Source: Flavobacterium jumunjinense (lineage in GTDB: Bacteria > Bacteroidota > Bacteroidia > Flavobacteriales > Flavobacteriaceae). From it: a stretch of DNA of 64,000 nucleotides. The stretch lies in NCBI RefSeq assembly GCF_021650975.2, contig NZ_CP091285.1, forward strand, positions 4,526,001 through 4,590,000, in the 5' to 3' direction. The notes below the pieces were generated by a model that was not told where the DNA came from, did not search any database, and saw only the letters and a program-made list of their open reading frames with translations. A program made the position numbers and the translations under genes. This document shows positions 25,325-54,211 of the stretch, one piece after another. Numbering within the stretch: position 1 is the first letter of the stretch; every line of letters starts with the position of its first letter.

Positions 25325-25337
25325 CAATTTATTTTCA

Positions 25338-25432
25338 TAGCCCTGATAGTAGCGGCATCCTTTTATAGAGTACAAATGTAGCTTGCGAAATTTTACGCTA
25401 TAAAAGATAAAGCGAATAGCAGGAAATAGCTT
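25338..25432 (+). ncRNA. Structured intergenic RNA candidate (resembles the Flavo-1 type motif)
   Basis: The folE-cysS gap holds conserved-looking blocks AGCCCTGATAGTAGCGGC and GAATAGCAGGAAATAGC around a 9-bp perfect stem (CTTTTATAG 25360-25368 with CTATAAAAG 25398-25406). CCTG (25342-25345) can pair with CAGG (25420-25423) to close the structure. I recall these two blocks flanking a variable stem in many flavobacterial intergenic regions, and I believe this is the Rfam Flavo-1 motif; the name is from memory and not checked. Function unknown. Confidence 0.55.
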
Positions 25433-48398: not shown

Positions 48399-51300
48399 CT
48401 ATCTTTTTAAAGAAAAGTGTGCTTTAAACACCCTTCTACTTTCTCCAAATAAATAATCTACTGTGAACCAATAATCGGTAGAAGGCAATTGTTCGCCATT
48501 AAACGTTCCGTCCCAACCTGCTCCAACGGTAGATAGTTGTTTCAATAACTTTCCATACCTATCAAAAATAAAAATACGTGCATCTGGCTGATCGGATAAC
48601 GCAACAATATTCCAATTATCATTAATTCCATCACCATTAGGGGTAAAAAACTTAGGATAATCTAAAACAATAACTTCAGTCGTAATTGATGCGGAACAAC
48701 CATTCAAATCGGTAACCGTAATAGTATGTGTTCCAATAGCTACATTTTCAAAAACAGGACTCAATTGAGGAATATTGTCGTCTAACTGATATTCATAATT
48801 ACCAGAAGAAGTAGCATAAACCGTTATTGTTCTTTCGCCCGAAAAAGGTTCCCCCACTACACAAGTAACATTCGTTAAAGTAGGCTGATTAATTGTCATT
48901 GCTAAAGTTGTTGCAACAGCACATTGTCCAGCATCGGGTGTAAAAGTATAGGTTGCCGATGTGGTATTGTTGACAACAGCAGGATTCCATGAACCAGTAA
49001 TACCTTCTATCGAAGTAGCTACTAAAACAGGAGCCGTTTCTCCTGAACAGATGGGTTGCAGCCCTGTAAAACTAGGAACAATAGGCGTGTTTACCACAAT
49101 CGTCATAACAACAACCTCAGCACATTGTCCGGCATCGGGTGTAAAAGTATAGGTCGTTGTTGTGGTATTATCCAAAGCAGGAGACCATGTTCCTGTGATG
49201 CTTTCTAACGATGTTGTTGGTAAAGGACTCAAGGTTTCCCCTGAACATATAGGTGCTACTTGTGTAAACGTTGGTGTTACTAAAGGGTTTACTGTTATTG
49301 TTACTGTTGTCAATGTTGATGAAGTACATTGTCCGGCATCGGGTGTAAAAGTATAAGTCGTTGTTGTAGTATTATCTAAAGCAGGAGACCATGTTCCTGT
49401 GATGCTTTCTAATGATGTGATTGGCAACGGAGCAAAAGCATCTCCCGAACAAATTGCAGCAACTGCTGAAAATGTCGGTGTTACTATTGGGTTTACAACA
49501 ATCGTCATCATTACACTATCTGCACATTGTCCGGCATCGGGTGTAAAAGTATAAGTTGTAGTTGCTGTATTGTCTAATGCTGGTGACCATGTTCCTGTGA
49601 TTCCTTCAATTGAAGTAGTCGATAAAGGAGCCAAAGCATCTCCCGAACAAATTGGTGCTACTTGCGTAAATGTTGGTGTTACGATTGGATTTACAACAAT
49701 TGTCATCATTACACTATCTGCACATTGTCCGGCATCGGGTGTAAAAGTATAGGTTGTTGTTGTGGTATTATCCAAAGCAGGAGACCAACTTCCTGTGATG
49801 CTTTCTAACGATGTTGTTGGTAAAGAACTCAAGGTTTCCCCTGAACATATGGGTGCAACTTCTGTAAACGTTGGTGTTACTAAAGGGTTTACTGTTATTG
49901 TTACTGTTGCCAATGTTGATGAAGTACATTGTCCGGCATCGGGTGTAAAAGTATAAGTTGTTGTTGTAGTATTGTCTAATGCTGGTGACCATGTTCCTGT
50001 AATACTTTCTAATGATGTAATTGGCAATGGGCTCAAGGTTTCTCCTGTACATATTGGTGCTACAGGATCGAAAGTAGGCATTACACTTCCTGGATTTACA
50101 GTACTTGTTAAAGTTGTTATTGTAGCACATTGTCCCGCATCGGGTGTAAAGGTATAAATTGTTGTGGTGGTATTGTCCAAAGCTGGAGACCATGTTCCTG
50201 TGATGCTTTCCAATGACGTGGTTGGCAAAGGAGCCAAGGCATCTCCTGCACATATTGGCGCAACAGGATCAAAAGTAGGTGTTGTACTTGGGTTAACAAC
50301 AATTGTCATATCAACCGGTTCTGCACATTGAATACCTGTGGGAACAAAACTAATATCATCAATCCCAAAATCATTTCCATAAGCAGCTGTATTCTTATCA
50401 TAAATACAAATCTCAGCCGAAGTACTTGTTCCAGAATTCCAAGGAAAAGAGCTTCTTGTCCAATTACAGGTAGCATATCCTAAATTAGTGTTTCCTATGG
50501 CAACTCCATTAATGGTTACTTCTAAATTAGCAGGACTTCCCGAAGAAACAGATTGGGCAAAATAGCTGAAAATATAATTTTCTCCTGCTTGAATAGGAAT
50601 TGTTTGACACCATACACTATCGTTTCCTCCATTGGAAACAGAAGCATCTGCTACTAAAAAATTACCACCACCCGTATTGTCATTACAAGACGAAAGTGAA
50701 TTGAACCAAACACTAGAGTTGGTTGTTACTCCATAGACTCCCACAACAGTTCCATCTGAACTTAATGTATGAGTATAGCTACTTGAAAATCCAGAATTAC
50801 CTTGCGAAAAATCTCCATTTAGAGCTAAATTCGGATTCGGATTCGGGTCGGGTGTAAAAGTATACGTCGTAGTTGTTGTGTTGTCTATAGCAGGAGACCA
50901 AGTTCCAACTACACCGTTATTTGAAATAGTAGGCAAAGGAGCAATTACTTCTCCTTCACAAATATCGGGTACAGGTGTAAAAATTGGAGTAGTTATTGGT
51001 TTTACAGTTACCAACACTGGTTGAATATCATTACAGTTTGGTGCTACACCAGAGGAACTTCTAATATAATAGGTGCCACTCACATCTATAGCAGACGGTG
51101 AAGGGGTAACTAAAGGAATTGTTCCCGCAGGATCGGTCCAATAGGTTAATGTACCACCACCTATACTTCCTACTGTTATAGCAGGATCGGTAATATCTAC
51201 TGTATTCGGACTACAAACTGCATCTGGATTTGTGATTGATAAAACGGTTGGTGCACACAATTGTAAAACAACTTCTAAATCATCTAGCGCAAAATCATTT

Positions 51301-51878
51301 CCTCCAGGACTTGTATTAACGTCTACTAAATTAATTGTTACACAAGCAGCCGAAGGCACAAAAGTGTACATTACTTGTTGCCAACCAACAGTAGGCAAAT
51401 CGGCAGTAGGATTACCATAGATAATTGTTCCTGTAGCGTTTCCAAAATTAACCACAATATTGGGTTGTGTAGTTGCATCTGTAGTTGTAGAAGAAATCGT
51501 TCTAATCCAATAACTAAAAGTATAAGAAGCTCCAATTGTTAAACCACAAAGTCCCGAGGCATTGTCTCCAGCACTCCAAAAAGAAGCATTCGAATTGGTA
51601 TGACCATCAACAACCATCATGGTGTTTCCTGCACCAGCAGTATGGTCGTTTAGGGGTGAAATAAAATATTGATTTAAAGGAGATGGATTATTGCTTATCG
51701 CATAACTTCCTGGATAAGTATCTCCTGTAGTAGATGTGTATAGATTGTAATTTGGAACAGTAAAACCGCTACCGGCTCCTCCGCTTTCAAAATCTCCGTT
51801 AGTTAAAAGGTTTTGGGAAAATAAGTGCACAGAAAAGAGCACAAAGCATGTAAAGAATGCTTGATTCAATTTTTTCAT
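48399..51878 (-). CDS. Repeat adhesin with type B T9SS sorting domain
   Basis: 1159 residues from the ATG at 51878, which opens a signal peptide (MKKLNQAFFTCFVLFSVHLFSQ). Parts: an N-terminal jelly-roll module (LLTNGDFESGG ... FALDDLEVV); one Ig-like domain; a first PLPTISNNGVVGTWSPA repeat split by a second jelly-roll (LALNGDFSQ ... FGIDDISFVP); seven more repeats of about 65 residues (ICSGETLSPLPTTSLESITG, then TWSPALDNTTTTTYTFTPDA); a SprB-like ENVAIGTHTITVTDLNGC module; and the type B sorting domain (FFTPNGDGINDNWNI, WDGTFNGEQLPS, KAHFSLKR). The sorting domain closely matches that of the 2161-residue adhesin. Surface display through T9SS is predicted. Confidence 0.9.
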   Translation of the reverse strand: MKKLNQAFFTCFVLFSVHLFSQNLLTNGDFESGGAGSGFTVPNYNLYTSTTGDTYPGSYAISNNPSPLNQYFISPLNDHTAGAGNTMMVVDGHTNSNASFWSAGDNASGLCGLTIGASYTFSYWIRTISSTTTDATTQPNIVVNFGNATGTIIYGNPTADLPTVGWQQVMYTFVPSAACVTINLVDVNTSPGGNDFALDDLEVVLQLCAPTVLSITNPDAVCSPNTVDITDPAITVGSIGGGTLTYWTDPAGTIPLVTPSPSAIDVSGTYYIRSSSGVAPNCNDIQPVLVTVKPITTPIFTPVPDICEGEVIAPLPTISNNGVVGTWSPAIDNTTTTTYTFTPDPNPNPNLALNGDFSQGNSGFSSSYTHTLSSDGTVVGVYGVTTNSSVWFNSLSSCNDNTGGGNFLVADASVSNGGNDSVWCQTIPIQAGENYIFSYFAQSVSSGSPANLEVTINGVAIGNTNLGYATCNWTRSSFPWNSGTSTSAEICIYDKNTAAYGNDFGIDDISFVPTGIQCAEPVDMTIVVNPSTTPTFDPVAPICAGDALAPLPTTSLESITGTWSPALDNTTTTIYTFTPDAGQCATITTLTSTVNPGSVMPTFDPVAPICTGETLSPLPITSLESITGTWSPALDNTTTTTYTFTPDAGQCTSSTLATVTITVNPLVTPTFTEVAPICSGETLSSLPTTSLESITGSWSPALDNTTTTTYTFTPDAGQCADSVMMTIVVNPIVTPTFTQVAPICSGDALAPLSTTSIEGITGTWSPALDNTATTTYTFTPDAGQCADSVMMTIVVNPIVTPTFSAVAAICSGDAFAPLPITSLESITGTWSPALDNTTTTTYTFTPDAGQCTSSTLTTVTITVNPLVTPTFTQVAPICSGETLSPLPTTSLESITGTWSPALDNTTTTTYTFTPDAGQCAEVVVMTIVVNTPIVPSFTGLQPICSGETAPVLVATSIEGITGSWNPAVVNNTTSATYTFTPDAGQCAVATTLAMTINQPTLTNVTCVVGEPFSGERTITVYATSSGNYEYQLDDNIPQLSPVFENVAIGTHTITVTDLNGCSASITTEVIVLDYPKFFTPNGDGINDNWNIVALSDQPDARIFIFDRYGKLLKQLSTVGAGWDGTFNGEQLPSTDYWFTVDYLFGESRRVFKAHFSLKR
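48880..50330 (-). repeat. Seven tandem coding repeats of about 190 bp
   Basis: Units 2-8 of the second adhesin, each with TSLESITGTWSPALDNTTTT and TFTPDAGQC. DNA identity between units is high, which also leaves antisense frames open. Limits are approximate. Confidence 0.8.
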
Positions 51879-52011: not shown

Positions 52012-52167
52012 GACTTGTATTTATTCTTTCCACTAAAAGTTGATAACGGCAAAAATAGAAAGATATTATGAAATAGCCTCCCTTTTTACTATTATGTTTC
52101 TGTAAAATAAAGTCCTAAAAAAAAATAGTTGCGAAAGAAAAATAAAACTGTAATTTTGTTTCCACAA

Positions 52168-52223
52168 ATAGGAAATGGTGTGCTTCCTAAACCAACCGCC
52201 CTGAAAAAGCTGATGACACCTGA
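52168..52223 (+). ncRNA. Fluoride riboswitch (crcB motif) aptamer
   Basis: ATAGGAAATGGTGTGCTTCC, then TAAACCAACCGCC and GCTGATGACACCTG, carry the conserved fluoride-aptamer blocks: GATGGTG-like, the CCTAAACC joining region, CCGCC, and CTGATGACACCT. GGTGT can pair with ACACC to close the fold. It stands 39 bases before a CLC-F exporter gene, the standard partner. Confidence 0.92.
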
Positions 52224-52258
52224 TTAAATATTTATTTTTCACAATTTTAATCAGGAGA
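52219..52258 (+). promoter_or_regulatory. Expression platform: SD-sequestering hairpin
   Basis: CCTGATTAAA (52219-52228) and TTTAATCAGG (52246-52255) are perfect 10-bp complements. The right arm contains the start of the AGGAGA ribosome binding site (52253-52258), four bases before the ATG. The left arm overlaps the 3' end of the aptamer (ACACCTGA), so fluoride binding should free the site. Confidence 0.75.
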
Positions 52259-52261
52259 ACT

Positions 52262-53581
52262 ATGTCTCATAATAATGCACCAGAAACCGCTAGCCAAAAA
52301 GTACAAAAGCAGCTCCAATTATTTTTTAAACGATTTCCATCACTACCTTATATTGCAAAATGGTTGCTCATTAGTAGCATCATCAGTATTTGTATTGGTT
52401 CTGCATCTGCCGGATTTCTAATCTCCTTAAATTGGGTGACCAACTATAGAGAAAACCATCTTTGGATTATTGCACTACTTCCCATTTGTGGACTATTCAT
52501 TGGTTATTTATACCATTATTTAGGAAAAGATGTTGAAGCAGGTAATAATTTACTTATTGACACGATTCATGATCCTAAAAAAATAAAAATCCCGTTCAAA
52601 ATGGCTCCCTTAGTCTATATTGGAACCATTGCCACGCACTTATTTGGAGGATCCGCAGGTCGAGAAGGAACAGCATTACAAATGGCAAGTGCTATAGCCG
52701 ATCAATTTACCAAACCCTTTAAACTAAATAGCGAAGAACGAAAAATAGTCCTCATTGCAGCTATTGCGGCTGGTTTTGGTTCTGTCTTTGGAACACCATT
52801 AGCGGGTGCTATTTTCGGATTGGAAGTATTCCTTATCGGAAAACTCCGTTACAATGCTATTTTTCCTGCTTTTACATCAGCCATCATAGCCGATTTAGTT
52901 ACCGATTTTTGGCAAGCTGAACACACACTTTATCATATTGATAGTATTCCTACACTTTCTACCTCAACACTGCTATATAGTATTCTAGCTGGAATAGCCT
53001 TCGGACTTTGTGCGGCTTCTTTTAGCAAAATAATGCATGCCACCACTCGTTTTTTCAAAGCCAAAATTAGTTATGCTCCTTTGCGACCTTTCATAGGTGG
53101 TTGCATTGTTGCATTAGCAGTATTACTTATGGGAACATCAAGATATATTGGTTTGGGTGTACCCGTAATTGTAGAAGCCTTTGATCACACATTACCCGTG
53201 TATGATTTTGCCTTAAAAATGGCATTCACACTACTCACACTTTCCGCTGGTTTTAAAGGAGGCGAAGTGACTCCCTTATTCTTCATAGGAGCCACATTAG
53301 GTAGTGCGCTATCGTTATTTATACCGTTACCCACTGCCCTATTAGCAGGAATGGGATTTGTAGCCGTTTTTGCAGGGGCTACCAATACACCATTAGCTTG
53401 TATCTTCATGGCACTCGAACTTTTTGGTTCAGAATGTGGTATTTATGTCGCTATTGCTTGTGTTGTTGCCTATTTACTTTCGGGACACACTAGTATCTAT
53501 ACCGCACAAATTATTGGCAATGCCAAACATTCCGATTTTAATGAGGAAGAAGGTAAAACAATCAAAGAAGTGAAAAAGTAA
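52262..53581 (+). CDS. Fluoride/proton antiporter of the CLC-F type
   Basis: Expels fluoride across the inner membrane. 439 residues, about ten or more spans. GGSAGREGTALQM is the selectivity-filter GREG motif. The residue run AGNNLLIDTIHDP replaces the GSGIP motif of chloride-type CLCs, which marks the fluoride-specific clade. GSVFGTPLAGAIFGLE, GGEVTPLFFIGA and AGATNTPLACIFMALE are further CLC signatures. The fluoride riboswitch just upstream supports the substrate. A lipoprotein gene follows 12 bases after the stop. Confidence 0.92.
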   Translation: MSHNNAPETASQKVQKQLQLFFKRFPSLPYIAKWLLISSIISICIGSASAGFLISLNWVTNYRENHLWIIALLPICGLFIGYLYHYLGKDVEAGNNLLIDTIHDPKKIKIPFKMAPLVYIGTIATHLFGGSAGREGTALQMASAIADQFTKPFKLNSEERKIVLIAAIAAGFGSVFGTPLAGAIFGLEVFLIGKLRYNAIFPAFTSAIIADLVTDFWQAEHTLYHIDSIPTLSTSTLLYSILAGIAFGLCAASFSKIMHATTRFFKAKISYAPLRPFIGGCIVALAVLLMGTSRYIGLGVPVIVEAFDHTLPVYDFALKMAFTLLTLSAGFKGGEVTPLFFIGATLGSALSLFIPLPTALLAGMGFVAVFAGATNTPLACIFMALELFGSECGIYVAIACVVAYLLSGHTSIYTAQIIGNAKHSDFNEEEGKTIKEVKK

Positions 53582-53593
53582 TACTGTGTTATA

Positions 53594-54211
53594 ATGAAAA
53601 AGAACCTCTTTTTATTTGCTTTCGTAATCTTGCTATTTTCATGTAAAAAAACAGAAATAAGACCTATTGAAACAACAAAAAAACTAAAAGAAAAAGGTCT
53701 TCCAAAAAGAGAAAGTAGCCAATCGTTTGATTATTCAAAGTTTACTATTTCTAAAGGAAAAATGGGAACATTAAAAATTGGCATGACTTGCCATGAGGCT
53801 GACAAATTACTTTCAGATTTAACAAAAAAAGAAACAGATCCTTTCAATTTTGGGTTCGATGGCGGAGGAAAAGCATACATCTATTATTTTGAAGAAGAAC
53901 CAATTCTATCATTAATCCCAGAATTTGAAACCGATACAATTATTGCAATAATAGCCCTTACAAAAGAAATAACAACAAAAAATGGCTTACACCCAAATGC
54001 CTCAGTTTCTGAAATACTTCAAAAAATTCCAAAACTAAAAGTCAACTATAATCCAATGATGGATTGGGAATATATGACCGATGAAAACAATAATTGGGAT
54101 TTTATTTTTGCTACAGATCCAAACCACCAAATTGGAAATTATACTGCTATTGAAGAACCTACAAAACCGATTCGTTTAGAAATAAAATGCGATTGGATAA
54201 CCATACATTAA
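53594..54211 (+). CDS. Lipoprotein, unknown function
   Basis: 205 residues with a lipoprotein signal (MKKNLFLFAFVILLFSC, Cys 17). The mature part is charged, with KMGTLKIGMTCHEADKLLSD resembling the start of a small alpha/beta fold seen in flavobacterial lipoproteins. It starts 12 bases after the CLC-F stop and could share the fluoride-controlled transcript, though a role in fluoride handling is not shown. Confidence 0.6.
   Translation: MKKNLFLFAFVILLFSCKKTEIRPIETTKKLKEKGLPKRESSQSFDYSKFTISKGKMGTLKIGMTCHEADKLLSDLTKKETDPFNFGFDGGGKAYIYYFEEEPILSLIPEFETDTIIAIIALTKEITTKNGLHPNASVSEILQKIPKLKVNYNPMMDWEYMTDENNNWDFIFATDPNHQIGNYTAIEEPTKPIRLEIKCDWITIH

Follow-up and report, generated by a model that had tools for sequence, protein, structure and literature searches.

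The leader of a CLC-type fluoride/proton antiporter-like (CLC-F) gene of Flavobacterium jumunjinense matches the fluoride riboswitch family, and the 3' strand of its aptamer is complementary to the sequence just before the start codon. We consider it likely that this leader is a translation-ON fluoride riboswitch that acts by occluding the start region, with the Shine–Dalgarno (SD)-like AGGAG having at most a minor role as an SD. The aptamer match, the two arms of the hairpin, a promoter motif, the target gene, and the recurrence of the arrangement among relatives were established by sequence analysis and computation. Coordinates (Table 1) refer to the window, the whole 64,000-nt stretch analysed (NZ_CP091285.1, positions 4,526,001 to 4,590,000), and those of the start region to the ATG of the CLC gene (clc) at 52262.

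Table 1. Features of the clc leader and its surroundings.
Feature	Position	Strand	Evidence
-33 element TTG of a Bacteroidota-type promoter	52129-52131	+	Read from the sequence; 19-nt spacer to the -7 element
-7 element TAATTTTG, fits TAHHTTTG	52151-52158	+	Motif count in Bacteroidota fluoride leaders
P1 hairpin AGGAA/TTCCT	52170-52174/52184-52188	+	Window sequence, RF01734 match, leader alignment
Pseudoknot 5' strand GGTGT, within the P1 loop	52177-52181	+	Pairs with 52216-52220
P2 region, weak in the window copy	52198-52210	+	RF01734 match, leader alignment
Pseudoknot 3' strand ACACC	52216-52220	+	Pairs with 52177-52181
Left arm CCTGATTAAA	52219-52228	+	Exact complement of the right arm, shuffle test
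U, putative linchpin U48 equivalent (partner A52213, A40-equivalent); third base of the left arm	52221	+	Directly after the pseudoknot strand
Hairpin loop, 17 nt	52229-52245	+	
Right arm TTTAATCAGG, spans -16 to -7 of the start region	52246-52255	+	Exact complement, shuffle test
AGGAG, SD-like	52253-52257 (-9 to -5)	+	SD pairing, AGG counts, relatives' leaders
CLC-type fluoride/proton antiporter-like (CLC-F) gene, 439 aa	52262-53581	+	PF00654, E 1.4e-74; 6d0j, E 1.8e-61
Small lipoprotein-like ORF	53594-54211	+	Starts 12 nt past the clc stop; no Pfam family

A covariance-model search of the 64,000-nt window placed RF01734 (fluoride riboswitch, crcB motif) at 52162-52229 on the forward strand with 35.7 bits, narrowly over the gathering score, 34 (E 3.3e-6, calculated for the full window), and in the 4.68-Mb genome no other RF01734 match reaches E <= 0.001. 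An earlier sequence-only reading had named a fluoride riboswitch from its conserved blocks; the blocks are present where it had placed them, and the score above gathering upholds the identification. The window copy shares with the crcB motif P1, the pseudoknot, the conserved blocks, and the position before a fluoride-exporter-like gene; its low score, a P2 that is weak, and U-A at the third pseudoknot pair set it apart. It looks like a genuine fluoride-sensing RNA upstream of a predicted fluoride-exporter gene.

The whole promoter reads TTG-N19-TAATTTTG at 52129-52158, in line with the Bacteroidota consensus TTTG/TANNTTTG given in PMC6847099 and the TAnnTTTG motif given in PMC9723704. The motif TAHHTTTG starts 14-32 nt 5' of P1 in 60 of 100 Bacteroidota fluoride leaders, whereas 88 positions further upstream yielded 8 hits. 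Many F. johnsoniae start sites are reported to lie 4 or 5 nt past the -7 element (PMC6847099), and the transcript would accordingly begin near 52163, about 7 nt before P1. With a start there, the riboswitch would make up the entire leader.

Among solved structures, the closest relatives of the encoded protein are 6d0j (1.8e-61) and, more weakly, two variants of it, while the best other CLC, 1kpl, reaches 6.1e-18. The likeness to 6d0j extends over residues 36-416 and both proteins have the GREG motif, but the window protein has Asn (AGNN) where 6d0j (QGMN) has Met. The protein belongs to the CLC family and is nearer to the fluoride antiporter than to the other solved CLCs, which bears out the proposal of a CLC-F-like exporter gene as the target; fluoride transport is predicted from this similarity. 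A second CLC gene is present elsewhere in the genome, and no CrcB match was found in it.

The small lipoprotein-like ORF may share the clc transcript: co-transcription is plausible, given the 12-nt gap and a scan (loops of 3-8) that found no terminator-like site on the forward strand between the clc stop and the ORF. Homologues of the lipoprotein occur in 4 of 121 genomes of the genus, its own included, and the other three loci have no CLC match within about 1.5 kb on either side. The suggestion that the gene is carried along with clc thus stands as possible co-transcription, and a conserved clc-lipoprotein operon is rejected on these counts. Elsewhere in the window, a Flavo-1 RNA (RF01705, 68.4 bits), for which we know of no function, lies at 25335-25430 on the forward strand, and 48399-51878 on the reverse strand encodes a long protein in which very similar units of about 70 residues recur (judged by eye) and which carries PF13585, a C-terminal domain of type IX secretion.

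The 10-bp exact complementarity of CCTGATTAAA and TTTAATCAGG was confirmed, and an equally good helix arose in 14 of 20,000 dinucleotide-preserving shuffles of the linker with the pseudoknot strand held fixed. The arm does overlap the aptamer, as the sequence-only reading had it, though by three nucleotides, the last two pseudoknot C residues and the following U, and not by the whole of ACACC. Likewise, the idea that the folded aptamer leaves the left arm unavailable holds for these 3 of 10 bases; a weak A/U-rich stem, predicted at about -3 kcal/mol, can remain. The predicted energy of the window hairpin falls from -10.2 kcal/mol in full to -4.0 without the CC and -3.3 without the CCU, and the predicted probability that -9 to -7 are unpaired rises from 0.003 to 0.63. 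Predicted means over 40 leaders including the window are nearly the same (-9.6, -3.5, and -3.0 kcal/mol). Based on these drops, the switch looks like a G-C clamp common to aptamer and hairpin. The combination found here, a helix joining the aptamer 3' strand to the start region and no terminator, is that of a translational (start-region-sequestering) fluoride riboswitch. Since the hairpin overlaps the aptamer and the leader has no terminator, the predicted logic is fluoride = ON, and the translational reading proposed earlier is supported by these features and the RF01734 match.

Related arrangements are known. In Bacillus cereus crcB, the linchpin A40-U48 is reported to be locked by fluoride (PMC8752731, PMC11077080), and there, as we propose for the window, a strand of the expression platform and the aptamer vie for the 3' half of the pseudoknot in a linchpin-gated manner (PMC8752731, PMC11077080), but the B. 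cereus platform is a terminator and that of the window a start-region hairpin. The equivalence of U52221 to U48 is our own mapping from this linchpin. In PMC13273304, the translational controls are fluoride riboswitches from Pseudomonas syringae and from Burkholderia pseudomallei. They act without termination, as in the window. Their hosts use SD sequences. The phylum of the window host is reported to hide the anti-SD, and so the occluded feature is here, unlike in those two species, probably the start region itself. The words 'bacteroid' and 'flavobacteri' are absent from the main text of PMC13273304. We found no paper on SD-free sequestering by Bacteroidota fluoride riboswitches in a search by title and abstract start that took in few subscription journals and is weak evidence of absence. 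The riboswitch itself is a known type of element; what is newer is to read the group as a whole as independent of the SD.

To see how widely the arrangement recurs, we searched for RF01734 in three overlapping samples, each including the genome of the window: the genus (199 genomes, 35 with a match, 29 over threshold), the family (397, 32, and 21), and the phylum (394, 55, and 46). Of 113 loci fetched, 10 below the gathering score were dropped (L030, L079-L087) and 103 were kept, among them L141 at 33.6 bits; further sub-threshold survey matches were left out as loci. The kept loci lie before CLC genes (69), before genes that we take, from sequence features, to be CrcB-like (24), and before other genes (10). 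One contig (genome G661, contig 5, with loci L135 and L140) has three fluoride riboswitch matches in about 23 kb, two over threshold and one at 33.8 bits.

A helix anchored on the pseudoknot strand was significant (p <= 0.05) in 38 of the 65 CLC leaders entered in the shuffle test, where about 3 would be expected, and was not significant in the other 27 (four of the 69 loci were left out: L003, L021, and L064 for their start choice and L103 for its long linker). Corresponding counts were 7 of 20 CrcB-like leaders, in a test that ended at start+3 and so misses arms entering the coding sequence, and 2 of 5 other leaders; the test took 20 of the 24 CrcB-like and 5 of the 10 other loci, and seven further loci were skipped for long linkers or as outside the groups. 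Compared with arms taken from other leaders, the own arm of a CLC leader scored better than 95% of foreign arms in 25 of 66 leaders and better than 80% in 45 of 66 (mean score 15.9 own versus 10.5 foreign); this control and the second-helix test described below used 66 CLC leaders (L011, L134, and L103 dropped).

From the protein side, 28 loci were collected by CLC similarity alone. The pseudoknot motif lies within 150 nt upstream in 26 of them, and CCTGAT...CAGG (or CGGG) arms precede the gene in 24 by eye; Flavobacterium, Chryseobacterium, Empedobacter, Dysgonomonas, Sphingobacterium, Sediminibacterium, and Emticicia are among the genera represented. In the alignment of 40 distinct leaders of the window's kind, 87.8% of arm cells pair in the helix of the expression platform, versus 15-50% with slid partners, but these leaders were chosen for having these very arms, so that the high pairing is partly built in and the 24 of 28 is the less biased count. 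Three of the 10 helix pairs change on both sides; the covariation score was matched in 16 of 500 shuffles, a modest covariation within a close group, and further pair types were no better than shuffles (194 of 500). With so few two-sided changes, the alignment argues for conserved complementarity more than for covariation, which we rejected as the main proof given the similarity within the group. Three leaders in the alignment (L128, L050, and L051) are shifted by one column, and L072 was left out of the alignment, the pair counts, the energy averages, and the AGG count. A second alignment (A2, 18 group-B leaders) was kept out of the pair counts, since the start regions in it do not line up.

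Other CLC leaders of the genus show a second layout, in which the 3' strand of P1 also pairs with the start region. Such a second helix reached p <= 0.05 under plain shuffles in 13 of 42 CLC leaders outside the window's kind (group A) versus 0 of 24 within it, and so is not claimed for the window. In L002, L071, L074, L075, L003, L004, and L017, the stretch TTTAAGGCA or TTCAAGGTA directly preceding the AUG can form 7-9 bp with the P1 3' strand, and the partner of the pseudoknot strand lies upstream of this stretch. The outer helix of this layout formed in 7 of 11 folds, partly in 3, and was absent in L071. Separately, in five crcB-like leaders (L061, L089, L118, L119, and L131, of which L061 and L118 are identical over the compared stretch), the arm that matches the aptamer 3' strand starts at the start codon and enters the first codons, so that sequestration would be the work of the coding sequence.

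The sequence-only reading took the hairpin for a classical SD-sequestering device, in which AGGAG is concealed until fluoride releases it to pair with the 16S tail. In favour of this explanation, AGGAG at -9 to -5 pairs with the organism's own 16S tail, CACCTCCTTTCT, at -7.4 kcal/mol, the second-best SD pairing among 50 ORFs; AGG occupies -9 to -7 in 27 of 40 leaders of the window's kind versus 0 of 49 other ORFs of the window; and an SD core occurs in 17 of 31 CLC leaders with the arm at -9 to -3 (9 of 20 with the arm further up). However, ribosomes of Bacteroidia are reported to be unable to recognise SDs (PMC9976891), which is ascribed to bS21, bS18, and bS6 holding the 16S tail (PMC9976891, PMC6847099). 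In F. johnsoniae, rpsU alone is described as having an obvious SD, whose use needs exceptionally strong pairing, below -13 kcal/mol (PMC9976891). The rpsU of the window's genome (L142) has the extended SD GAAAGGGGGTGCC at -18.3 kcal/mol, as published for F. johnsoniae, compared with the -7.4 kcal/mol of clc. Flavobacterial initiation is described as differing from SD use (PMC9723704) and, in F. johnsoniae, as depending on structure and on A at -3, -6, -12, and -13 (PMC9976891, PMC6847099); all four A residues are present before clc.

Comparison with relatives also speaks against the SD role. The 16S 3' end was sought in 17 genomes and found in 14. In a second family of the same order (f2), the copies inspected in all five genomes with a 16S end read ATCTCATTTT where the window's genome has CACCTCCTTTCT; an altered tail has been published for Chryseobacteria (PMC9976891). 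Nevertheless, CAGGA is retained in all seven leaders examined from this family (one of them, L115, from a genome in which no 16S end was found), with a pairing to the altered tail of -0.9 to -2.1 kcal/mol. The full AGGAG occurs in just 2 of 40 leaders of the window's kind, the window included. Finally, in 15 of 66 CLC leaders the best arm abuts the AUG or comes within one base of it, and none of the 15 has an SD core; 11 of these 15 helices have at least six pairs, and 7 are significant in the shuffle test (p <= 0.05). Taken together, the presence of AGGAG and its -7.4 kcal/mol pairing stand, but SD sequestering as the mode of action is unlikely in view of the reported hidden anti-SD, the CAGGA kept in f2, and the arms at the AUG. 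AGG is probably kept for pairing with the CCU of the aptamer and not as an SD, a role that we regard as doubtful, though it may still apply to this copy; in the simplest reading, AGG complements this CCU and what the hairpin closes off is the start region itself.

A decaying aptamer that has lost fluoride sensing and left behind a constitutive or chance hairpin is improbable. It would fit the score of 35.7 bits, the lowest among the 29 over-threshold matches of the genus survey, the weak P2, in which 2 of 4 model pairs are standard, and the U-A in place of U-G at the third pseudoknot pair, which the window alone has among the 40 leaders. On the other hand, the alignment has 33 invariant columns, at none of which the window departs from the other 39 leaders, its pseudoknot has five pairs, all of them Watson–Crick, and its promoter motif and arms are intact. 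Its short P2 type, CCGCCCTAAAAAGC, recurs in several relatives. Each of the two inner P2 pairs is unpaired in 12 of 40 leaders. The U-A pair should stiffen the aptamer. Control of transcription by anti-termination, known for the fluoride riboswitches of B. cereus and T. petrophila (PMC11077080) and matched by terminator-like leaders, a stem and then a T-run, among the Bacteroidota loci (L110 and L127), is scarcely credible for the window, where the hairpin is A/U-rich with a 17-nt loop, is followed by AGAACTATG instead of a U-run, and coincides with no terminator site in a leader scan covering loops of 3-8, so that we rejected a terminator in the leader.

Under occlusion of the start region, the reading that we prefer, we infer fluoride binding, the OFF and ON states, translational control, and independence from the SD as follows. 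Transcription would start about 7 nt 5' of P1. When fluoride is absent, all ten bases of the left arm (the CC that ends the pseudoknot 3' strand, the U equivalent to the linchpin, and seven more) would pair with -16 to -7, and the resulting hairpin of about -10 kcal/mol would block initiation at clc. When fluoride is present, the pseudoknot and the linchpin would lock the three shared bases, the G-C clamp would be lost, the hairpin would fall to about -3 kcal/mol, and ribosomes could load. The ON state as drawn is limited by the prediction that the seven-pair A/U-rich stem can persist, with A-12 and A-13 staying paired. The occluded element would be the start region as such, that is, its structure and A-rich context.

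On balance, we favour extending this reading, with less confidence than for the window, to Bacteroidota fluoride riboswitches as a group. These would be SD-independent translational switches in which the aptamer 3' strand is antisense to the sequence before (in some crcB-like leaders, over) the start codon; the AGG of CLC-F leaders would be kept for complementarity, and the second layout within the same genus would close the start region with the P1 3' strand as well. If this is right, these leaders would offer a natural system for riboswitch control of translation in a phylum reported to do without SD pairing, and the relatives with an altered 16S tail would provide a ready comparison for SD-independence. 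Fluoride is a cheap inducer, and the leader could serve as a tunable switch in Flavobacterium genetics.
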